Virus record (IMG/VR): IMGVR_UViG_3300037502_000933
Span: 1-20,182 of that record
Source of the DNA: a virus
Length of the DNA stretch: 20,182 bases
Strand: one strand, 5' to 3'
Of this stretch, positions 2,184-17,670 are shown one piece after another. Under the pieces are notes generated by a model. The model made no database searches and was not told where the DNA came from. It worked only from the letters and a program-made list of their open reading frames with translations. The stretch's first letter is position 1, and each line of letters opens with the position of its first letter. The translations under genes were made by a program, and so were the position numbers.

Positions 2184-2218
2184 TCAACACATGATACCCA
2201 CCCTCTCTCATGTGATGA
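2184..2218. promoter_or_regulatory. 35-bp dyad operator, copy 1 (upstream of winged-helix gene)
   Basis: Half-sites TCAACACAT (2184-2192) and ATGTGATGA (2210-2218) flank a 17-bp core. The second copy at 9982-10016 has the same half-site spacing and a related core, with about 28 of 35 positions identical. The core includes ATGATA, which reads as a TATCAT -10 on the minus strand (2196-2191) for the winged-helix gene. An additional half-site-like GTGTTGA lies at 2223-2229, so the dyad may extend. The arrangement fits a repressor or activator site covering the left-operon promoter. Confidence 0.65.
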
Positions 2219-2259
2219 CATGGTGTTGACTCTATCCCCAAGGGGTGGAAGCCGAGGTT

Positions 2260-2299
2260 CCTACCCAGCCCGGAGGGCTCACAACAGAGCCTACCCAGC
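2260..2299. repeat. Direct repeat CCTACCCAGC, two copies 30 bp apart
   Basis: CCTACCCAGC occurs at 2260-2269 and again at 2290-2299 (GCTGGGTAGG on the minus strand). Between the copies is a small hairpin, GGCTC (2276-2280) with GAGCC (2287-2291). On the minus strand this gives two identical single-stranded-looking motifs around a stem at the 3' end of the candidate RNA. The role is unknown: repeated RNA motif or protein site. Confidence 0.5.
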
Positions 2300-2493
2300 T
2301 AACCCATGAGGCAGCGATTCATTCACCAAGAGTCTTGTCCCACCGCTTTCCTCTTGGCTACACCAGTCCCTCGCTGACAGGCTGGTACCTAAACGGGGGG
2401 TGTAACCGCTAGGTGTCTTTCCTTCCGCGCCACCGATTCAAGTGCTTGCTAACGGGCGGAGTCCGGTCAGAATGAAACCCGGCCTAGAAAAGG

Positions 2494-2588
2494 AAAAACC
2501 CCTTAGCGAGGACTTGGGCTTGACAGGCCGGGCATCTGATGGGAGAGATGCACATCAAGCCCTCACTAAGAGGTTCTTTGTTCCCATC
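2494..2588 (-). terminator. Long pseudoknotted hairpin with U-run, terminator-like
   Basis: On the minus strand the arm at 2573-2561 (CCTCTTAGTGAGG) pairs over 13 positions with 2511-2499 (CCTCGCTAAGGGG), including two G-U pairs, and is followed by five T (2498-2494). Inside are GGGCTTGA/TCAAGCCC (2562-2555 with 2523-2516) and GCATCT/AGATGC (2551-2546 with 2537-2532). The apical loop contains TCCCATC (2544-2538), which can pair with GATGGGA (2588-2582) just upstream, a seven-base pseudoknot. It may end the RNA or be its core domain. Confidence 0.6.
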
Positions 2589-2883
2589 AAAACGCCGGGC
2601 GTCACTCCGACAAGGTGGAGACTATCATAGTCCGAGGAAGTTCCGCAAGTGGTTTCCGGCTGATCGGTACAGTGGCCGGAGCACCGCTTTGCAAATCAGC
2701 ACCGATCTGCCTAGTGCCAGATCCCAGGTGGATAGCCCTCTCTGGCTGCAAGCGTTTATCGCCACCTCTTGCTGGGCGCATGAAAACAAACAACAGGGGA
2801 GGGGGGTGTACAACAACCGAACCCACGTTGCCGGGAATCCTGTTGTTACCCCTCCGCTTCCAATCCTACACCCGCCCGGGAAT

Positions 2884-2913
2884 AAAAAAACCCCCGGGTG
2901 TCTAGGCCGGGGG
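2884..2913 (-). terminator. Intrinsic terminator
   Basis: On the minus strand CCCCCGG (2913-2907) pairs with CCGGGGG (2897-2891) across a 9-base loop and is followed by seven T (2890-2884). It would end transcription arriving from the early operon and from the promoter at 2988-3017. Confidence 0.8.
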
Positions 2914-2981
2914 TCTCACCAAAGGTGACCATGAGTGCCACTGCTAGGAGGTTTCATGGTGACTGCGAGGAGGCACAGTCA
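2884..2981 (-). ncRNA. Candidate small RNA, about 98 nt, with two CCUCCU loops
   Basis: A sigma-70-like promoter (2988-3017) and a strong intrinsic terminator (2884-2913) bracket about 98 bases on the minus strand. Four hairpins can be drawn. (1) GACTGTG/CGCAGTC (2980-2974 with 2967-2961) has a loop that is exactly CCUCCU, with one G-U pair that exists only on this strand. (2) ACCATGA/TCATGGT (2960-2954 with 2934-2928) has a loop containing a second CCUCCU (2951-2946). (3) TCACC/GGTGA closes a TTT loop near 2928-2916. (4) is the terminator. CCUCCU is the anti-Shine-Dalgarno sequence, and loops of this kind are known in alphaproteobacterial sRNAs that bind mRNA ribosome sites. A role in translational control of host or phage mRNAs is inferred. 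It could instead be the 5' domain of the larger RNA. Confidence 0.55.
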
Positions 2982-3525: not shown

Positions 3526-3747
3526 TCAGGAATCCATTGTTCTAAGATACAAAACACCATCCTCGCCAACCTTCCAAGTCCTATCCCCGGCCTTCAAGTG
3601 GATGTCCGGGATGCAGGTGCAGTCTTTGTTACTAAATACCCCGCAGTCATCGTCATGGCCGACCTCGACCTGGATCACCCCCCCGGCGGTGCTTTGGTAT
3701 TTCTGTAGCTCCAGAACCCCCTTGGCCAGTCTGTCTTGATAGTTCAT
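3526..3747 (-). CDS. Small hypothetical protein with Cys cluster, 73 aa
   Basis: I do not recognise this 73-residue protein by name, though short phage proteins with a similar acidic/Cys segment exist. Residues 31-47 contain HDDDCGV then DCTCIPDI, three cysteines that could bind metal, followed by a beta-rich end (RTWKVGEDGVLYL). Its ATG overlaps the previous gene's stop (ATGA, 3744-3747), and its TGA abuts the GTG of the next gene. No signal or membrane segment is seen. Confidence 0.7.
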   Translation of the reverse strand: MNYQDRLAKGVLELQKYQSTAGGVIQVEVGHDDDCGVFSNKDCTCIPDIHLKAGDRTWKVGEDGVLYLRTMDS

Positions 3748-4382
3748 TCTCCCATCCCATCGTAATCAAAGGTTTTAGTATCCCCGAGCCGCCACTTGGC
3801 AAATTGCTCCACACGATATTTCTTGGTCGCCACCTTGAAGTCTGGCTTCTTCATCACCTCTGGATTAAAGGCAGGTTCAAAGAATCGGCAGCGGTTATTC
3901 GGCTGCAAGGCAAACTGGCCGTTGTCCAGCTTCAAAAGGTTGTAGCTCTTATGCTCATCCGGGGTCTCAGACAATGTGAAATCCGGGATCCTGGGGTCTG
4001 GGTTACAGGTATCCAGGGTGAACATGTATTCCCCCTTGTGGGTCTGGCGATCCTTGCCAAAGAACTCAGCCCGTAGTCCCTTGAGGAACGGCTTATCAAC
4101 CACGGTAACGTAGTAGCTCAGCGCATCCCAAATCTCTAATACATCTAGCGGCAGCGGTTTGTCGTAAACCGGCATCCAAGAAAAGGCATGGATCGGTAGC
4201 TTGTCATACAAAGCGCCATACTCAGGAAGATAAGTCTCAAACCTGAACGCCTCGCCCCGGATAGCTTTGACGCTGACCCAGATCCCAGGGATTAGTGGCG
4301 TATCAGCTGTGCAAGTAAAGTCGTACAGATACTCAGGCCGAACCCAAACCTTGACCGGCGGCAGTGGGCATACAAAGTTCAA
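3744..4382 (-). CDS. Hypothetical phage protein, 212 aa
   Basis: The function is not recognised. The protein is soluble, rich in aromatic residues and proline, and mixed alpha/beta, with no transmembrane segment. The start is TTG at 4382, chosen because it overlaps the upstream TGA in a TTGA junction and has AAGGAG eight bases upstream inside the preceding gene. The next ATG would remove a large N-terminal part. The stop overlaps the ATG of the following 73-residue gene by four bases. It lies in a run of small accessory genes. Confidence 0.75.
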   Translation of the reverse strand: MNFVCPLPPVKVWVRPEYLYDFTCTADTPLIPGIWVSVKAIRGEAFRFETYLPEYGALYDKLPIHAFSWMPVYDKPLPLDVLEIWDALSYYVTVVDKPFLKGLRAEFFGKDRQTHKGEYMFTLDTCNPDPRIPDFTLSETPDEHKSYNLLKLDNGQFALQPNNRCRFFEPAFNPEVMKKPDFKVATKKYRVEQFAKWRLGDTKTFDYDGMGE

Positions 4383-4642: not shown

Positions 4643-4929
4643 TTAACCTCCAAGTGTTCGTTATCAAAGAGCCATCCGACAGTCTTCCGATGAGCCATCT
4701 CCCAAATATCAACCCGGTCTTCCTTGCTCATCTTAGAACCTTGATCTAGCCCGGCATGACATCTGAAACACAGAGCCGCGATCCGGTAGTCATGCGCCTT
4801 GATCGAGCGACCCTTCCCATCCCGCAGCTGGTTGGAATGGGCGGCCACAATGGTGCCATCCCTAGCGCCACAGAGTTGACATGGAGACTCCCGGACTACT
4901 TCCAAAAGCTTCTTGTTTCGGTAATTCAT
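4639..4929 (-). CDS. HNH-fold putative nuclease (DUF1364/Ref-like)
   Basis: This 96-residue protein has a treble-clef/HNH-like zinc layout: C17-x2-C20, the AH motif with H31, H46, then C54-x2-C57-H58 (CQLC, AAHS, CFRCH). This matches phage recombination-associated HNH proteins such as DUF1364 and, distantly, P1 Ref. It would nick or cut DNA, perhaps during recombination; the exact activity is inferred. The ATG at 4929 has AGGGGA about eight bases upstream and lies 68 bp inside the preceding gene. The stop overlaps the next ATG (ATGA). Confidence 0.65.
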   Translation of the reverse strand: MNYRNKKLLEVVRESPCQLCGARDGTIVAAHSNQLRDGKGRSIKAHDYRIAALCFRCHAGLDQGSKMSKEDRVDIWEMAHRKTVGWLFDNEHLEVK

Positions 4930-5116
4930 TGATCATTCCCCTGACCTCGGATAGTGTCTGCCGGGCTTTGTATAAAGCCTCCAGGCTGGCGATCCGGTCA
5001 TCTTCTAACATCCGCAGCATCTGCGATGCCTTGATCATCTCAAGGCGCTCATCCTCAAACTTCATGTGTTTGGCATTGGCTTTAAGCCACGCTGCCAGTC
5101 TATGTGCCTCATTCAT
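4862..5116 (-). CDS. Small helical hypothetical protein, 84 aa
   Basis: This is an unrecognised soluble protein, nearly all alpha-helical, with charged heptad-like segments from residue 1 to 65 (for example MLRMLEDDRIASLEALYKARQTL). The last 20 or so residues lose helical character and overlap the HNH gene start by 68 bp. The ATG at 5116 follows the stop of a possible 30-residue membrane peptide. Coupling and composition favour a real gene; its C-terminal end may be under little constraint because of the overlap. Confidence 0.65.
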   Translation of the reverse strand: MNEAHRLAAWLKANAKHMKFEDERLEMIKASQMLRMLEDDRIASLEALYKARQTLSEVRGMINELPKQEAFGSSPGVSMSTLWR

Positions 5117-5201
5117 GCTTGGCCTCCCACCATAGCAAAAGAGATATGTACGCCATCATGGCTATGTAAAACTTAGCCGGCCCCAAGCTACTCCACTCCA
5201 C
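5109..5201 (-). CDS. Possible 30-aa membrane peptide
   Basis: A GTG at 5201 opens a 30-residue frame containing a single hydrophobic helix (FYIAMMAYISLLLWW) and a charged end EAKHE. It fills the otherwise empty stretch 5117-5187 and overlaps both neighbours (13 bp upstream, 8 bp downstream), as other genes here do. A shorter version could begin at the ATG pair near 5156. The Shine-Dalgarno is poor, so this is tentative. Confidence 0.4.
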   Translation of the reverse strand: MEWSSLGPAKFYIAMMAYISLLLWWEAKHE

Positions 5202-5391
5202 TACCAGTACTGTTAAGTTCATCAATCTCCTCCATCTGTTCTTTGGTTAGAACATCTCCATCACAACACTCTGAGACTAGATGCCAATTCTCATGGCTAG
5301 ACACAGCGCCCCAGTATTCAGTTCGCCCATACCCAAAGTCCCGTTTGACCTCTCGGCAAGGCTTTCTGCACTCGCTACAGATTCCGTCCAT
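5188..5391 (-). CDS. Small zinc-ribbon-like protein, 67 aa
   Basis: The start at ATG 5391 is preferred over an in-frame one 11 codons upstream, because it shares one base with the upstream TGA (TGATG) and has AGAAGGTG just upstream. The product begins MDGICSECRKPC, giving C5-x2-C8-x3-C12, and has a CC pair near residue 43, so a zinc site is plausible. The C-terminus is acidic, then Ser/Gly-rich. The function is unknown. It lies among small accessory early genes and is followed by the 30-residue membrane peptide candidate. Confidence 0.7.
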   Translation of the reverse strand: MDGICSECRKPCREVKRDFGYGRTEYWGAVSSHENWHLVSECCDGDVLTKEQMEEIDELNSTGSGVE

Positions 5392-5582
5392 CAACGCACC
5401 TTCTTGTTTTGTTCGCCAACCCACAGCCCGGCGCAGACTAGCTCCAGCTGCTCAGATGGGGGGTTAGTCTTAAGGGCATAGTTCATGCCTACCTTGAACC
5501 CTTCAGCGTGGGCCGTGTCGATACGGTGATCAACCAACAGCCAGGCGGCTGCGATCATAAAGCCAAGTAAAAAGATTTTCAT
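5391..5582 (-). CDS. Small N-terminally anchored membrane protein, 63 aa
   Basis: Residues 3-17 (IFLLGFMIAAAWLLV) form one hydrophobic segment after MK. A soluble part then follows with the block GFKVGMNYALKTNPPSEQLELVCAGLWVGEQNKK, a pattern I associate with small conserved phage membrane proteins of unknown role. An N-in, C-out anchor in the inner membrane is expected. The ATG overlaps the stop of the Rap1a-like gene (ATGA, 5579-5582) with AGGA eight bases upstream. Its TGA shares a base with the next ATG. A spanin role is possible, but no lysis partner is visible. Confidence 0.7.
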   Translation of the reverse strand: MKIFLLGFMIAAAWLLVDHRIDTAHAEGFKVGMNYALKTNPPSEQLELVCAGLWVGEQNKKVR

Positions 5583-10054: not shown

Positions 10055-10399
10055 ATGATCCAGCTAGAGCTACCCTATCCACCCAGCGTAAACCACTACT
10101 GGGGCCAATTTGGCAAGCAACGCTTTATTGGCAAGAAGGGCAAGGAGTTCAGGCTGCTGGTCGCAGAAGCCTGCCTAGACGCCAAAATTCAGACCCTGGA
10201 GGGCCGTTTGGCTGTCCATGTAGCCCTATGGCCACCCGACCGCCGGGCGAGGGATGTAGACAACGTATTAAAGCCGCTGCTGGATGCCTGTGAGCATGCC
10301 GGCTGCTTTGTGAACGACAGCCAGATCGACGAGCTTCACATCATTCGGCAGGGGGTCAAGAAGGGCGGCAGCTGCACCGTCTTGATCCTCCCGATCTAG
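10055..10399 (+). CDS. rusA: RusA-like Holliday junction resolvase
   Basis: This 114-residue protein carries the RusA pattern: N-terminal LPYPPSVNHYW, then RARDVDNVLKPLLDA with the acidic residues D67, D69 and D77 and lysine K73, and FVNDSQIDEL with D88 and D92. RusA homodimers cut four-way junctions, which fits the Erf/nuclease cassette on the other side of the divergent promoter region. It is the only plus-strand gene and so has its own control: TATAAT at 10017-10022 and the palindrome at 10026-10048. The Shine-Dalgarno is weak. Its stop codon TAG overlaps the minus-strand TAG of the giant virion gene within one CTAG, leaving no space for a terminator between them. Confidence 0.9.
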   Translation: MIQLELPYPPSVNHYWGQFGKQRFIGKKGKEFRLLVAEACLDAKIQTLEGRLAVHVALWPPDRRARDVDNVLKPLLDACEHAGCFVNDSQIDELHIIRQGVKKGGSCTVLILPI

Positions 10400-13300
10400 T
10401 CAAAAGCCTGGCGGCGCAGGGACTCGATCCCCTCTAGGATTTCGCCTTTTAGGTTGCCAAACTCATTCATTTGCTCCCGGCGTTCTTTGGGACTCATGTC
10501 CTTGGCCGAGGTGGTGCCGATCCGGCGGATCTCTTTGTTAATCTCTTTTAGGGCAGAGTCCATCTGGCTGGTGTAGTCGTGCAGGCCAATCAGCCCCTCG
10601 TGCTTTTCGAGATATTTGTCTGCCTCGTCGTATTTTTCCCGATCCAGAAGACTGTTAAAAGTCTTCCATTTCTGGTCTGTAGCCTCTTTGAGGTCATAGA
10701 AGAGATCCTCCCGGCCTCTAGGCACCGGAGGCAGCACAAAGGCTCCTATGACCGGCAGATCCTTGACACGGCTCTCAGCCCGGTCTCCGGCCAGCATGTT
10801 GGTTCCCCACATGGCCATCGCGGCTGCGGAACCAAAGAGGCTGCGCATCAGGTGATCGGCCTCTATCGGCGCTAAAAGGCGCTTACCGTCCGTTCCCGGG
10901 ATGCTGGTCAGGGCGCTGACCACCTTGCCAAGCTCGGAAGTGGCGGCGTTGTACTGCTCGGCAGCCTCCAGATCCTGCATTCCTTTGGGGATAACCTCGC
11001 TGCCAGTCCAGAAGTTCTTGTTCAGACCAATTTCAATAAACGGCTTGGCGCCGGTCGGTACCACATTCGGGCCCAGCATGGAGTCCATAAAGGCCTCTTT
11101 CAGGGCTTTGCGGAAGCGGCGGCTGTCCATCTCGGTCTCAGCCCCTTCCCTGGTGATCTTGTTGTACAGGAGCTCCGGGATGGCCTTGAAGAAGAAGCTG
11201 GCCGAGGTGTGCATGGGAAGAGCCACGGTCTCGCCAAAGTACTTTTTGCTGCCAGGAATAATAAAGTTACGAAGCTTGGTTTGGTCATCGAGCTTCTCGT
11301 ACTCCTCGTCATCACCCACGGCAAAGCAGTAAAGCAGGGTGGTGAATGACAACAGGCCGCCAGTAATCGCCATGCGGGTAATGGCTTTTTGACGGGCCAT
11401 ACCCTTCAGACCGCCACCTGCCAGAGTCGTAGCCAAAACATCGATTGACACGGCGTAGGCGTTCATAAAGGATACTGTCCGGCTTAAGAACTGAGCTGTC
11501 TGGCCGCTGCCTCGCTTTAGGAAGTCAATGACGTTGTTGGCCTGGAGAAGCGCCTGTGCCTCATCCCCGGTTTCTTTCAAAACCTGTTTGTAGATGGATA
11601 CCCGCTGGGCATAGTCCGAGGCATCCCCGATATGGTCGAGCACCCGAAGAACCTTGGCGTACATGGATTTATTCAGCAAGCCAATCTCAAGAGCCAACTC
11701 TTGCTCGGGAGTCCTGGCCGTAGACATAAATCCACCAATACCGGCCTGCCGCAGTTTCTGGGCAATCGGATCTTTGTCCACTAAAACCTTACCGAAGGCG
11801 ATAAATGTGTTGGCCCATACGGCAAACGGGTTCTTAACGCCGGATACCCAGGCTGCCGTCGGTGCATCCATAAAGAGCTGCTTGAGCTGGAAAGCTCCGG
11901 ACAGAGTGATCGAGCGACGCAGGCCATTAGCCATGATCGACAGGATCTTGTTCATCGGAATCTCTACGTTCTCCATCCCGATCGCGGCTTCAGCAATCAG
12001 CGGATCAGCCACGCCAATTACGATTCGGCGGCCATTACGCAGGATGTTGAACTTCACGCCATCAGAGTCAGCACCCTCTTTGGGGAAGACCTTCAGCTTG
12101 CCCTTCTCGTTACGGATGCCGTATTCATCAGCAATCCGGTTGGCAGCGTAGTTACGCATGGTGTTTTTGGTCATCCACATAACGTTGTGAATCATGTTGT
12201 CCACAATGTCATCGATGTCCAGCCCAACCTCGCCAGCCTTGAATCTCTTCTCCCTGGCCACATTGGTCATGGTTCTGGTCGTGCCGCCAGTGGGGAAATC
12301 ATGGGGATCTTTCTGATCGTCCATGATTCGATACCAGGGCACATAATCCTTGATGGCCTTGAGCTGCTCGTACCTGGCTTTGCTTAGATTGCCAGCGAAG
12401 TACGACATGTCCAGCTGGTTTTGATTCACAGCTGTCCAGTTATCCATCATGGCCCGCAGCTCGGGATATTCTTTCTCCAGGGCGATGAACTCATCAATCT
12501 GCTCGTCGTCCATGTTGACCTTGCTTGCGGCCCGCTCAATATTGGCCAGGGCTTCTGCGGCTTCTTCTGGGTTTTCGCCAGAATCCAAGGCATCTTGATA
12601 GCGCTGCTCCCGAGCAAGATACTCATCAATAATGCTGCGTGAACGCTTGGCCTCAAAGTACGCCTGGATCACATTTGCCGCCCTTTGAGCTCCCAGCTGA
12701 TCTACAAGCTTTGCCTTTTCTTTCAGGACGTTGGCCATCGATTTACTGCGCTTAACCGCCATGAACTGCTTGGTCTTATCGTTGTACTCTAGACCACCCT
12801 GAACCATGACCTGGGTGCCTACGTGGCCAGCATGGATGGCATTGGTAACCGCGATCGAGGCTACCGCCTTACCCTGAGCGTCACGCAGCTGACCGTTGTA
12901 GCGAGAAAAGTCAGCCTGGTCTACACCGGTTCCGTACCAAATATTCTTGTTGCGGGCATAGGTGATGGCCCGATCTGCGCCAGAAATAACACCCTTACCA
13001 ACGCCTAGCGGATCATCAATCACCCGTTGTCCAATTTTCTTTGTGCCGCGATATGTGCCAAGCATCCGATCTTTTACTGAATTTGATGGATGTAACGGGG
13101 CCTCTGGTCGATTGTGCTTTTCTAGCAAATCATCAAGACGTCGTGTGTCTTCGTTGTCTACATCCTTCATAAACTCCGGAGTGTCATCAATAACCTGGTT
13201 GCTCGGAGCCGCATTAACTGGTTCTTGATTTACTTGATCAAGATAGTCAACAAATGTTCTATCAGGTAAATAGTTAGCATTTTTTAATTTTTGATAAAAA

Positions 13301-16300
13301 GTGCGAAGCTGATTAGCTAATCGTTTAAAAAACTTTTCTACGATATTTACCGGTGCTCTGTTCGTTACTGCCCACCGCGACACTTGATCTGCATACCATT
13401 CGCCAAAAGACTTCCAGTATGAGCTCATTTGAAAAACAGTTTGATCAGCTGGAACTTTAGCTCGCTTGCCAACAGCTCGGCCACGAAGCGCTGCCACTAG
13501 ATCCTTGGCCATCTTTCCTTCTTGTCGCGACAGCCAGGATTCATGGGCTTTCTTCAAAGCTGCCTTTTGCTCTGGAGTAGCTCTTTCATAAACCAATCGC
13601 TCGTGGAGGTGTCCCATTTCGTGAGCGATAACCTCTAACATAAATGTTGGGCTGGTTGATTTCTCAAACAAAATGTAGTAACTGTCATCAGCCATCCGAC
13701 GCATTGAACCACGTTCTTTTTCGTCTAAAGTTCCTGATCCAATTCGACGATGAGGCCCAGTAAAGTTGTTACGATTGCGTTTAGCGTCTTCAATTGTTGA
13801 TACATAAACCGGGACATTAATCTTTAACAGATCTTTCCAACCACGAATTACTCCGGCTAGTTTTTCATCAATGTCATTAGATGTTGCCAGACCACGATCA
13901 AAAGTTATAAATGGATTTGATTTGTGTTTAGATGCAGCGTCAGCCTCAGCCTTCTGTTTAAACTCAATCATTTCTTTTTTGACATCATCCGGAACTTGTT
14001 TGCCAGTAAACCGTTCAATATCTACTCTGGCCCGTTGAGTCTTGATTGCTGGGACATAGACTGGATCCCCAGTCATCATGGAATAACCACGAATTAGGGC
14101 GTAATCGCCTTCTTGATAAACTACTTCACCGCCAATTTCGTCGGCAACCATCTGAGCATTTGCCTTTTGCTCTTCGGTAGTCTTAGCCTCGGCTCTGGGT
14201 GCTTTTCTTTTTTGAGACAGTAGGTATCCGGCATAGTCCATGCCAAATTGGCCAAGTTGTTTCTCAGATGAGTAGTCACCAGGCAAGCCAAACTTGCGCT
14301 CACCACCTGGGCTTGTGACTATTTCAGCTCCAGCATCCACTTGATCTTCTATAAGCGTATGAATTGCCACCGGCCCTTTAGCTGTTGGCATTTTCTTAAA
14401 TAACTGTTTATTAGCTTCGTAAGTGTCTGATGCAGAATCTAGCTTGCGTGTAAACTGTCTAACGCGCGGATCGACAAAGGTGCCGGCCTTCTTTTTAAGA
14501 TCCTCAATCCGTTTTTCATTGACATCAACTTCAAGCTCATCAATCTTGTCTAGGATTTTTTCCGCCTGGCGCTTATCGATTTCTTTGACCATAGCGGCAA
14601 AGTCTCTGTCCGACCCGGTCATTACCATAGCTACATCTTCTTCAAGAGTGGCAGCTTCTTTAGCCTCTTGCTCCTTGACCAGCCGATCTCTTGTTTCAAT
14701 CCTGCGCTTTTCCTCAGCTTCACGCATCCGTTGGCGCTGCTCCTCAGTCATGGCAGCCTCTCTGGCTACCTTGGCCTCAAAGGCGTCCGGATCTTCAATG
14801 TATTCCTTGACCTTAAGCTTTTGTTTCAGATCAAGCTTACTTTCTGAGATCTTCACTCCTTTAAGAGCAGCAAACTCGATGGCAGACTGAATGTCGTTGG
14901 AATCAACCAGATCACGCAGCGTGGTCTCAACCGAGGCCGGGGAGATAGCAAACTGCGGGCCGCGACCTTCTTTAGGCTTGACCGCAGCGGTCAGGCGCTT
15001 CTTGAACTCAGCAAGACGCTCCTTGTTATTTTTGATCTTGAACGTGCCATCGTTTGGAATGGAGAAGGTCACAAAGTCGCGACGACTTTTTGCTGTGGCA
15101 TTCCACTCATCATCATCTTTATACGGAGACTTGGCGATTGCTTCATCAACCTGGCGCTCCACTTCTTTGCGCATGGCCGAGTAGTCAATCTTCTCGCCAC
15201 GAGCACCTTTGCTAACTGCCTCTTGAATAACGGGCTTAGTGATTGGCTCGGACTCTCCGTCTTCAACGTGCTCTTCTTTGACAGCTTTTTTAGCGGGAAC
15301 TTTAGAAACCTTAACAGGAACGGTCGGAGGTTTTTTGGGCCATCCACCAGCCGGTCGAGGTAACGCTTCCATCCTTTTTCGTGCTTCGCCAATTCGAGAA
15401 GCTATGTCCTCTAACCTGTCCTGGTATTGTTTGTAAACTTCGTTGCGCTGATCAGCAGGAGCTTCGTCTACTTTTTTCCAACTTTCACGTTGAACTTCAC
15501 CATATTCTTTATTGAGATTATCAATTTCTATTGTTCGTAAACCGTTGGACACTGACATATACGGTTGTTGCTCAACTGGCAATTTCATTTCTTCTACTTC
15601 AGCAGCCTGTCTCTTAGCTGCCTGGCGCTCACGATTGATCGCGGCCTGTTCTTCTTTGGTCGGTTTTTTAGCGGCTTCTGCTCGCTGTTTGTTTAACCTT
15701 GAAATTTTGCTAATTCTTGAGTAGGCGTTATTAAATTCTTCCATCGCCTTACCAAGGGCATCACCAACGTTTTCACCAGACTTCCAACGAGTGTAAACAT
15801 CAAATTTCTTTTGAGCTGCTTGTAAGAATTTCTCAGCTGGTGCTTTGCCAACCCCCCAGCTCTCCATGATTTGTTCCACAGGAGGCGGGGCTTTCATCGG
15901 AACTTGTTCCTTCATCCATTCTGGAACTTCTGTCTCGGCTTGTTCTGTCGGCTCTTCAGCTAGGCCCCTAATTGACGCATATTCCTCTGGAGTCAGAGAG
16001 TTAACAATCTTGGTAAGTTTTTTCTCCAGGGCTGGGTTTTTAATGTCATCAATAGTGAACCGCTCCAGTAGGTCAGGCGCTTCAGCTTTGGGAATATCAA
16101 TCTTTTTAAGCTCAGCCGGAGTTGCCTTGAGCAGTCGGTTGTACAGATCTTCAGTGACCGGAGCTACAGTTGGAGCGGCCTTTGGAGCGGCTCCTTGAAG
16201 GTTTCTAATCTCCTGGCGGATCTCTGACTGCCTGGCATCAAACTCCTGCATCTCAGGAGAATCTGGGGCGATAAGCGGATCCTGGCGCTTGGCCTCAATG

Positions 16301-17670
16301 CGGTCAAACTCAGCCTGTAGTGCGTCTATCCTGGATTGAGCCTCAGCTGGGGCTTCTACTTTTGTAGGAGCTGCAACCGGCTCAACACCCTCAAGCTCTT
16401 CTTCTGCAAAGGCAGGAGTAACTGGCGCTTCAGCCTTTTCCTCCTCCGGCATGGTTGGTTCAACCCGTGGGGCTGCTGCTTTAGCGGCAGGCTTTGGAGC
16501 TTCTTCTGGAGCCTCTGCCGGAGCGGCTTTACCACCACGCAGCTCCTCATAGATACGCCGGCCACCAAAGGCAGCGGTCTCAGCGATACTGGTCGGGCCT
16601 TCGCCAACGGCTTCAGCTACCACCTCGCCAGGCTTACGAATTTCTCCATAGGTCGCTAGCTGGGCCGCGGCTTCACCACCAGCGCCACTAAGCACCTGGG
16701 CTGCCGGCTGGGCGATCGCTATGTTAATAGCCTCCCGGGCCTTTGGACTACCAACCAGGCGCTTGGGAACCAAGGCTTTGCTGGCTAGACCGGCCGTAGC
16801 GGCATCAGCGGCCCCAATAATGGCACCACGCTTCAAAGCGAAGTCGTAGGCTTCTTTAAAAAGCTTGGGGTCATCGAGGGCCGACATCACAGCGTTTGTA
16901 TCGTTGATGTCTACGCCGTTTTCGGCTAGGTACTCAAATACGCTATTGCCAAGCTCCGAGGTCAGACTTGTTCCACCCATCGCGGCAGCACCAGCAATTG
17001 GCTGGCGGGTAACTGCACCTATGGCCAGAGCAGGAGCCATCTGCGGCAAGCTTTCTGCTGCGAATCCAGCCATAGCCCCAAACGGGTCTGTGGCCAGCGC
17101 CTCAAAAGCTTCGCCAAAGGTTTTTGCTCCACCAATAGCTTGGGTCACCGGCCGACCAGGAATTGCACGGGCCTGGGCCTCACGCTTGGCTACAGACTCC
17201 AGCTCGTCCATCTGAGCCTGTTGCAATATGTTGATTGCGTTTTCTTGTTCCTCTGGGCTTAGAGGAATGAACTCACCAGTCATGGGATCTGTGCGGCCAG
17301 CCTCGCCACGACGGATCTTCTCAATTTCTTTTTGACGAGATACTGCCGACATCGAGGGCAGCACGTTCATACCACGCAATACACCGCGCTTGATGTCCCG
17401 ACCAACCCGCTCGCCTAGTGAAGTGCCAGCCTCGTACTCTCTAGTCTTCTGTCGTAGCGCTGCTGCTTCGGGCGTATCCGCTACCGGAGTTAGCATTTCC
17501 TCTGGAGATAGCACCGGTTCGCTAGGAGCTCCCTTAGCAAATCCAATCCGCTCAGCAAAAACATCAAATGAAAGATCGGAATAAAACTTTTGATGAAGTC
17601 CTTTTGCTAACTGTTCATCCGATAGATCGCTGTACTGCGGGTACTTTTGCCGAATCTGCTGGATGTTCAT
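10396..17670 (-). CDS. Giant virion (ejection-type) protein with metalloprotease motif, 2424 aa
   Basis: This is a multi-domain phage protein of the size of podovirus internal/ejection or polyvalent proteins. Residues 1-45 form a short domain (IRQKYPQYSDLSDEQLAKGL) that I associate with large phage virion proteins. About 165-330 is Ala/Gly-rich and partly hydrophobic. About 370-440 is a Pro/Ala/Glu linker, and about 520-1080 is highly charged and helical. AHEMGHLHE holds the zinc signature H1350-E1351-x2-H1354. The C-terminal part (about 1900-2424), with a hydrophobic stretch near 2098-2120, resembles large polyvalent protein domain LPD38. It is probably packaged and injected with DNA; the protease may process virion or host proteins (inferred). 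The ATG at 17670 follows the upstream stop after two bases. Two A+T-rich islands suggest module exchange. Confidence 0.85.
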   Translation of the reverse strand: MNIQQIRQKYPQYSDLSDEQLAKGLHQKFYSDLSFDVFAERIGFAKGAPSEPVLSPEEMLTPVADTPEAAALRQKTREYEAGTSLGERVGRDIKRGVLRGMNVLPSMSAVSRQKEIEKIRRGEAGRTDPMTGEFIPLSPEEQENAINILQQAQMDELESVAKREAQARAIPGRPVTQAIGGAKTFGEAFEALATDPFGAMAGFAAESLPQMAPALAIGAVTRQPIAGAAAMGGTSLTSELGNSVFEYLAENGVDINDTNAVMSALDDPKLFKEAYDFALKRGAIIGAADAATAGLASKALVPKRLVGSPKAREAINIAIAQPAAQVLSGAGGEAAAQLATYGEIRKPGEVVAEAVGEGPTSIAETAAFGGRRIYEELRGGKAAPAEAPEEAPKPAAKAAAPRVEPTMPEEEKAEAPVTPAFAEEELEGVEPVAAPTKVEAPAEAQSRIDALQAEFDRIEAKRQDPLIAPDSPEMQEFDARQSEIRQEIRNLQGAAPKAAPTVAPVTEDLYNRLLKATPAELKKIDIPKAEAPDLLERFTIDDIKNPALEKKLTKIVNSLTPEEYASIRGLAEEPTEQAETEVPEWMKEQVPMKAPPPVEQIMESWGVGKAPAEKFLQAAQKKFDVYTRWKSGENVGDALGKAMEEFNNAYSRISKISRLNKQRAEAAKKPTKEEQAAINRERQAAKRQAAEVEEMKLPVEQQPYMSVSNGLRTIEIDNLNKEYGEVQRESWKKVDEAPADQRNEVYKQYQDRLEDIASRIGEARKRMEALPRPAGGWPKKPPTVPVKVSKVPAKKAVKEEHVEDGESEPITKPVIQEAVSKGARGEKIDYSAMRKEVERQVDEAIAKSPYKDDDEWNATAKSRRDFVTFSIPNDGTFKIKNNKERLAEFKKRLTAAVKPKEGRGPQFAISPASVETTLRDLVDSNDIQSAIEFAALKGVKISESKLDLKQKLKVKEYIEDPDAFEAKVAREAAMTEEQRQRMREAEEKRRIETRDRLVKEQEAKEAATLEEDVAMVMTGSDRDFAAMVKEIDKRQAEKILDKIDELEVDVNEKRIEDLKKKAGTFVDPRVRQFTRKLDSASDTYEANKQLFKKMPTAKGPVAIHTLIEDQVDAGAEIVTSPGGERKFGLPGDYSSEKQLGQFGMDYAGYLLSQKRKAPRAEAKTTEEQKANAQMVADEIGGEVVYQEGDYALIRGYSMMTGDPVYVPAIKTQRARVDIERFTGKQVPDDVKKEMIEFKQKAEADAASKHKSNPFITFDRGLATSNDIDEKLAGVIRGWKDLLKINVPVYVSTIEDAKRNRNNFTGPHRRIGSGTLDEKERGSMRRMADDSYYILFEKSTSPTFMLEVIAHEMGHLHERLVYERATPEQKAALKKAHESWLSRQEGKMAKDLVAALRGRAVGKRAKVPADQTVFQMSSYWKSFGEWYADQVSRWAVTNRAPVNIVEKFFKRLANQLRTFYQKLKNANYLPDRTFVDYLDQVNQEPVNAAPSNQVIDDTPEFMKDVDNEDTRRLDDLLEKHNRPEAPLHPSNSVKDRMLGTYRGTKKIGQRVIDDPLGVGKGVISGADRAITYARNKNIWYGTGVDQADFSRYNGQLRDAQGKAVASIAVTNAIHAGHVGTQVMVQGGLEYNDKTKQFMAVKRSKSMANVLKEKAKLVDQLGAQRAANVIQAYFEAKRSRSIIDEYLAREQRYQDALDSGENPEEAAEALANIERAASKVNMDDEQIDEFIALEKEYPELRAMMDNWTAVNQNQLDMSYFAGNLSKARYEQLKAIKDYVPWYRIMDDQKDPHDFPTGGTTRTMTNVAREKRFKAGEVGLDIDDIVDNMIHNVMWMTKNTMRNYAANRIADEYGIRNEKGKLKVFPKEGADSDGVKFNILRNGRRIVIGVADPLIAEAAIGMENVEIPMNKILSIMANGLRRSITLSGAFQLKQLFMDAPTAAWVSGVKNPFAVWANTFIAFGKVLVDKDPIAQKLRQAGIGGFMSTARTPEQELALEIGLLNKSMYAKVLRVLDHIGDASDYAQRVSIYKQVLKETGDEAQALLQANNVIDFLKRGSGQTAQFLSRTVSFMNAYAVSIDVLATTLAGGGLKGMARQKAITRMAITGGLLSFTTLLYCFAVGDDEEYEKLDDQTKLRNFIIPGSKKYFGETVALPMHTSASFFFKAIPELLYNKITREGAETEMDSRRFRKALKEAFMDSMLGPNVVPTGAKPFIEIGLNKNFWTGSEVIPKGMQDLEAAEQYNAATSELGKVVSALTSIPGTDGKRLLAPIEADHLMRSLFGSAAAMAMWGTNMLAGDRAESRVKDLPVIGAFVLPPVPRGREDLFYDLKEATDQKWKTFNSLLDREKYDEADKYLEKHEGLIGLHDYTSQMDSALKEINKEIRRIGTTSAKDMSPKERREQMNEFGNLKGEILEGIESLRRQAFD

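Follow-up and report, generated by a model that had tools for sequence, protein, structure and literature searches.

Structured phage RNAs to which no function has been assigned are an already known kind of molecule. GOLLD, a structured noncoding phage RNA found by covariation in environmental sequence, is often longer than 800 nt, is encoded close to tRNA islands and assembles as a 14-mer cage (PMC12286853). ROOL and OLE are likewise large ornate RNAs with unclear functions. The pRNA of phage phi29 is a phage-encoded structural RNA with a compact fold, and its size is comparable to that of the RNA described here. Alteration of the host RNA polymerase by RNA alone is another known phage strategy, represented by the HK022 putRNA, which acts in cis on the RNA polymerase of its own operon (PMC9378689). 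We analyzed a 20,182-nucleotide stretch of viral DNA (IMG/VR record IMGVR_UViG_3300037502_000933, positions 1 to 20,182; hereafter the window, to which all coordinates refer unless a contig is named), whose minus strand carries a structured RNA of about 245 nt, module C (2222..2471). The broad kind of this RNA is known, and the family itself is new. GOLLD is nearest to it in kind, both being phage RNAs without an assigned function, but C is only about 245 nt long, no tRNA was detected in the window by ARAGORN, and the GOLLD model gives no match. ROOL and OLE differ from C in size and architecture, and their models do not match it either. Some copies of C lie near terminase genes, as would befit a pRNA, but most lie away from packaging genes and the pRNA model does not match; several carriers of C have ordinary large-terminase genes nearby.

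A sequence-only reading of the window had proposed positions 2226-2880, a gene-free block of about 650 bases, as a candidate ornate noncoding RNA with the size and context of GOLLD and ROOL, perhaps of a new class. The interpretation as structured noncoding phage RNA stands, and neither of the two conditions named for its rejection applies: covarying homologues exist, and they have no conserved protein frame. That of a single giant GOLLD- or ROOL-like molecule is not supported, and models of GOLLD, ROOL, HEARO, OLE and the group I intron find no match in the block. The block is a minus-strand cassette made of a hairpin (module A), a promoter, module B of about 100-130 nt, and module C. These modules are separable, because protein genes separate A from B and B from C in L003 and L004, two related phage contigs reached via the ParB-like protein encoded downstream in the window; the pieces of these contigs that match the window correspond to ~2924-2796 (A), ~2650-2480 (B) and 2442-2170 (C). 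The individual features noted earlier are readily found in the sequence: two crossing pairings (GGGTGTA at 2873-2867 with TACACCC at 2810-2804, and AACAACAGG at 2847-2839 with CCTGTTGTT at 2797-2789), a long hairpin followed by a U-run (2573-2556 pairing with 2522-2499, then UUUUU), an upstream promoter candidate, and a G+C content of 57% against ~46-53% in the surroundings. Folded as RNA, the whole block has an energy z-score of -4.3 relative to 20 shuffles. Relatives of the 178-aa protein encoded upstream were sought, and none was found. The genes inserted between the modules occupy positions 3565-4993 of L003 and 3566-5111 of L004; judged by eye, a phosphoesterase-like ORF of 313 aa and an ORF of 226/187 aa lie there on the opposite strand, and an ORF of 76 aa on the same strand.

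The gene block upstream of the cassette ends with an intrinsic terminator (2884..2914, minus strand; ACCCCCGG...CCGGGGGT plus a U-run), which is kept in L003 and L004 with base changes. Module A (2798..2855, minus strand) is a conserved hairpin with the outer stem GGAGGGG/CCCCTCC around the core GGATTCCCGGCAACGTGGGTTCGGTTGTTG. Relatives of it were found in L003, L004, L028, L038/L039, L209, L210, L213, L214 and L217, and by eye the outer stem varies on both sides among them. It constitutes a second conserved hairpin family, with the core GATTCCYGGCAACGTGG..TTCGGTTGTTG and a variable G-rich outer stem, that occurs both with and without C nearby and is possibly another small RNA.

Module C is widespread among environmental phages. 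With the block as query, blastn gave no match among 50,697 phage and 72,556 plasmid records, and further IMG/VR contigs were found via short exact patterns from C; a gapped C pattern matched at least 120 stretches. The covariance model built from 18 aligned sequences matched 84 of the 85 sources searched and 30 further contigs, as well as the divergent contigs L005 and L006 and the INPHARED record MW202484, so that, the window aside, C is known from at least 115 contigs of IMG/VR. The window copy matches over its full length with 246 bits, being one of the sequences from which the model was built. With divergent C queries, blastn produced one true match, again MW202484, and otherwise chance matches or none. 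Bacterial and archaeal reference genomes, about 85,000 in number, yielded no true copy when scanned with exact or gapped patterns, which divergent copies could escape; a pattern match in a Prevotella MAG (L044) scored 12 bits under the C model and is a chance one. The carriers are environmental contigs of several phage lineages and appear to be virulent-looking aquatic phages. In L003 and L004 the C segment is 89% identical to that of the window at the DNA level, compared with about 75% for the adjacent coding DNA. In MW202484 (L140), hypothetical proteins are annotated at 4908-5532 across the divergent copy of C (63 bits), and these genes are probably spurious.

The fold of C is defined mainly by covariation. 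Taken by itself, C has no significant folding energy (z = -0.7); since the folding program models no pseudoknots, covariation is the decisive evidence for this module. The first alignment gave 43 pairs by RNAalifold, 24 of them with compensatory changes. Covariation was then scored by an APC-corrected G statistic on 77 distinct C sequences; the null was a set of 20 alignments simulated along the maximum-likelihood tree and given the gaps of the real one. The maximum under this phylogenetic null was 87.7, and 14 observed pairs exceed it, all of them canonical and located in helices P2, P3, P4 and P5 and pseudoknot PK1; PK2 comes next, with E = 0.05. C therefore carries compensatory changes beyond those accounted for by phylogeny. 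In the 43-pair structure including pseudoknots, 97.4% of cells are standard pairs as opposed to 30-40% with slid partners, a control that favours the structure in so far as the latter was partly derived from the same alignment, a bias from which the tree-based null is free. Compensatory changes are seen in 30 of the 43 pairs, and double-changed cells number 768 versus 228 in shuffles. G-U pairs are common at covarying positions (pair 29-42 is GU in 24 of 76 sequences), which argues for an RNA rather than a DNA cruciform.

The elements of this fold follow one another along the minus strand. Helix P1 (2453..2465; 2465-2463 with 2455-2453) exposes in its loop the 5' strand of PK1, in which UCCGC at 2460-2456 pairs with GCGGA at 2428-2424, joining the first hairpin to a strand downstream of P2; three PK1 pairs exceed the null maximum, all three with compensatory changes, and 98.2% of cells are paired. 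Hairpin P2 (2444-2441/2434-2431) and pseudoknot PK2, which connects the P2 loop (2435, 2436, 2439) to 2417-2415, both covary, and pair 38-56 switches between GC (50) and CG (26). Covariation likewise identifies helix P3 (2414-2411/2390-2387), helix P4 with an A bulge and the invariant loop UGUCAGCGAG (2386-2380/2369-2362), and helix P5 (2357-2351/2332-2326), where six pairs are above the null maximum and all eight counted pairs show compensatory changes. Pseudoknot PK3 is proposed from complementarity between CAGCGA at 2376-2371 and UCGCUG at 2317-2312; all of its cells are paired (100%), but the pairs are almost invariant. The mini-hairpin P6 (2303..2311, CC-UCAUG-GG) comes from pair counting, as helix 11. 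Helix P7 (AGC 2300-2298 with GCU 2269-2267), which carries the variable hairpin P8, stems from a rule-based search, weaker evidence than that for the other helices, and is present in 90 of 94 homologues, among them as UGC/GCA (26), CUC/GAG (17), GAC/GUC (15) and UAC/GUA (8). A tertiary pair 133-226 had an E-value of 3.7 against the null and is not claimed. Judged from these alignments, the C fold would be locked by at least two covarying pseudoknots and an invariant third one.

The gene-free character suggested earlier holds for C: among 89 homologues, any given reading frame is open in at most 5 and none is common to them, and two invariant anchors are spaced 70 to 78 apart, with lengths that differ by single bases. 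On the opposite strand, a 55-aa frame (2245-2412) that is also conserved in L003 and L004 was rejected as coding; its changes are mainly non-synonymous and it is absent from the other relatives. None of the 4227 models of Rfam 15 hits the window above its curated threshold, and at E<=10 the block attracts only sub-threshold models of terminator hairpins (for example, anti-hemB) or of low complexity. Rfam searches of six divergent loci reported only a tRNA elsewhere in L037, and that of the B-C-D region of L106 reported nothing above threshold. Family models did not match the core motifs of group I or group II introns or of known self-cleaving ribozymes, and the open-licence papers on phage noncoding RNA families that were searched contained no description of the C RNA. 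Taken with the homologues and their abundant compensatory changes, the lack of an Rfam match makes the proposed new class likely, and the strong structural evidence argues for C as a real new RNA family.

In most relatives C is preceded by a B unit that begins a few bases after a sigma70-like promoter. In the window this candidate promoter (2621..2648, minus strand) consists of TTGCGG at 2648-2643, a 16-nt spacer and GATAGT at 2626-2621, and most of the homologous B elements have TTGACA-type and TATAAT-type boxes at the same place. According to base pairing read from the sequence, module B (~2494..2614, minus strand) is a pseudoknotted RNA with a terminator-like end: a 5' hairpin (2611-2607/2598-2594), an 8-bp pseudoknot (2589-2582/2544-2537), and the long stem with its U-run mentioned above. 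The B elements of another sequence class (31 relatives; alignment A5) follow the same plan. In all 31 of them, the 5' hairpin loop is perfectly complementary to 7 nt farther downstream, immediately ahead of the terminator stem's 3' arm; 19 different heptamers are involved, and a chance match has a probability of about 1% or less in each case. L040 and L041 have C with no B ahead of it, and at some other loci B is replaced or displaced. Upstream of B in L051, L059, L061, L072, L103 and L106, the -35 box (TTGCG/TTGACT) lies within the loop of the preceding terminator hairpin, forming a fused terminator-promoter. Between B and C, extra structured-looking inserts of very roughly 80-220 nt occur in L046, L108, L109 and L136, as if further small RNA genes accumulate at this spot.

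The genomic settings of C are diverse. It is single-copy in all 31 phage records searched (up to 78.8 kb), and lies upstream of a ParB-helicase operon at 28 loci, between the scaffold and capsid genes at 24, and elsewhere close to genes for terminase or ahead of replication-like genes. The next gene is mostly on the same strand; a convergent gene adjoins C in L067, L076 (an ORF of 2020 aa) and L111, and a convergent methylase-like gene follows it in L109. No protein family is common to all 23 sampled C records, the widest reaching 17 of 23, a result that is suggestive rather than proof, as some contigs are incomplete and the clustering was at the sequence level only. Sequence beyond the AACCUAUG tail of C is not conserved, a T-run of at least 5 occurs within 90 nt after C in only 11 of 108 copies, and an intrinsic terminator of its own is absent in most of these 108 loci. 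The Methylophilales phage MEP301 (L141) has a capsid protein 70% identical to that of L106 and lacks C: its scaffold-capsid junction contains only a promoter and the capsid leader. Because this junction keeps the leader without B-C, the pair appears to be gained or lost as a unit.

The reading that we favour, with a probability of about 0.6, is that C is a stand-alone phage RNA of a new family, probably trans-acting and usually carried in a B-C cassette. The usual order is a host-type sigma70 promoter, B with its intrinsic-terminator-like stem, and C; transcription from the promoter would mostly yield B, and C would arise as a discrete RNA through read-through or from upstream transcription. 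C would then form a compact, pseudoknot-locked particle of about 245 nt and target a host component in trans, such as RNA polymerase, the ribosome, an RNA-binding protein or a defence protein. Its single copy, its unrelated neighbouring genes and the lack of a phage protein common to all sampled carriers speak for such a role. A stable RNA particle without an obligatory phage protein suggests direct action of RNA on a host machine, and an important viral function is indicated by C being more conserved than its neighbouring genes in the closest relatives, occurring in at least 115 contigs, with one copy per phage wherever whole contigs were searched, and giving no true copy in the pattern scans of reference genomes. 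We further propose, only tentatively, that B and C form a mobile two-RNA cassette that unrelated phage lineages exchange. C would then be a functional RNA of a new kind: either a ribozyme, or an RNA that needs no phage protein to capture a host machine and could, for example, reprogram host transcription or translation or block defence. Against a stand-alone gene, C in most loci has no intrinsic terminator of its own to account for its 3' end, and the prevalence of same-strand next genes fits a cis element as well; the loci where B is missing or displaced speak against the cassette. C can be put to the test by means of its covariance model, the B-C cassette and the cultured phage MEP301, whose corresponding site is empty.

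The strongest rival to a trans-acting C is antitermination in cis, which we consider unlikely on balance: B and C together would be a put-like transcription switch, B being a pseudoknot-controlled terminator, similar to the terminated short leader RNA made from lambdoid late promoters, and C a nascent-RNA antiterminator that modifies the host RNA polymerase. A promoter and a terminator do stand directly before C, the operon that follows usually shares its strand, and a host partner would account for the missing shared phage protein. HK022 put and the lambda pR'-tR' leader resemble B-C in that a phage operon starts with a host promoter and a structured RNA that is short and terminated, and C, like put, might act on the host RNA polymerase. 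However, put RNA is shorter and is repeated at operon heads, whereas there is one C per phage and not one per operon; C is situated after the terminator of B and not before it; a further promoter (TTGACA-TATAAT) directly follows C in the capsid setting; and the next gene is convergent in L067, L076, L111 and L109.

A simpler cis role, as a leader or riboswitch of the next gene, would suit the window and the ParB-type phages, where less than about 200 nt separate the end of C from a start codon and where, in the window, C adjoins an operator-like palindrome and a ribosome-binding site. We hold this to be improbable, since the next genes differ widely (MarR-like, ParB, capsid, terminase-linked or convergent), so that C has no constant association with one same-strand regulated gene, and no conserved expression platform follows it. 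Equally improbable is C as a ribozyme or processing substrate whose fold cleaves or protects phage transcripts: its compact multi-pseudoknot fold and many invariant unpaired-looking bases recall catalytic cores, and cleavage could account for the missing terminator, but no Rfam ribozyme family matches and no conserved cleavage context was recognised at either end. Least credible is an element acting as DNA, such as a packaging site, an origin or a cruciform; single copy number and the adjacent replication or packaging genes in many phages are compatible with it, but the frequent G-U pairs at covarying positions, the RNA-like pseudoknotted architecture, promoters placed for transcription and a strand consistent relative to these promoters all point to RNA.

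Several other elements were observed around C. In L072, L106, L054, L080 and L046 a conserved, structured-looking leader of the major capsid gene lies just after C; it has a sigma70-like promoter of its own, and in MEP301 it is found at L141 23795-23590 (minus strand). The operator-like palindrome of the window (TCAACACCATG...CATGTGTTGA, 2184-2231, minus strand) lies between C and the MarR-like gene and is conserved in L003 and L004, which have in addition a second repeat that forms an alternative hairpin. Farther along the window, the minus strand encodes at 3744-4382 a protein of phrog_3704, a family named ferredoxin whose other members come mainly from cyanophages and pelagiphages, and at 10396-17670 a 2424-aa LPD38 polyvalent protein.
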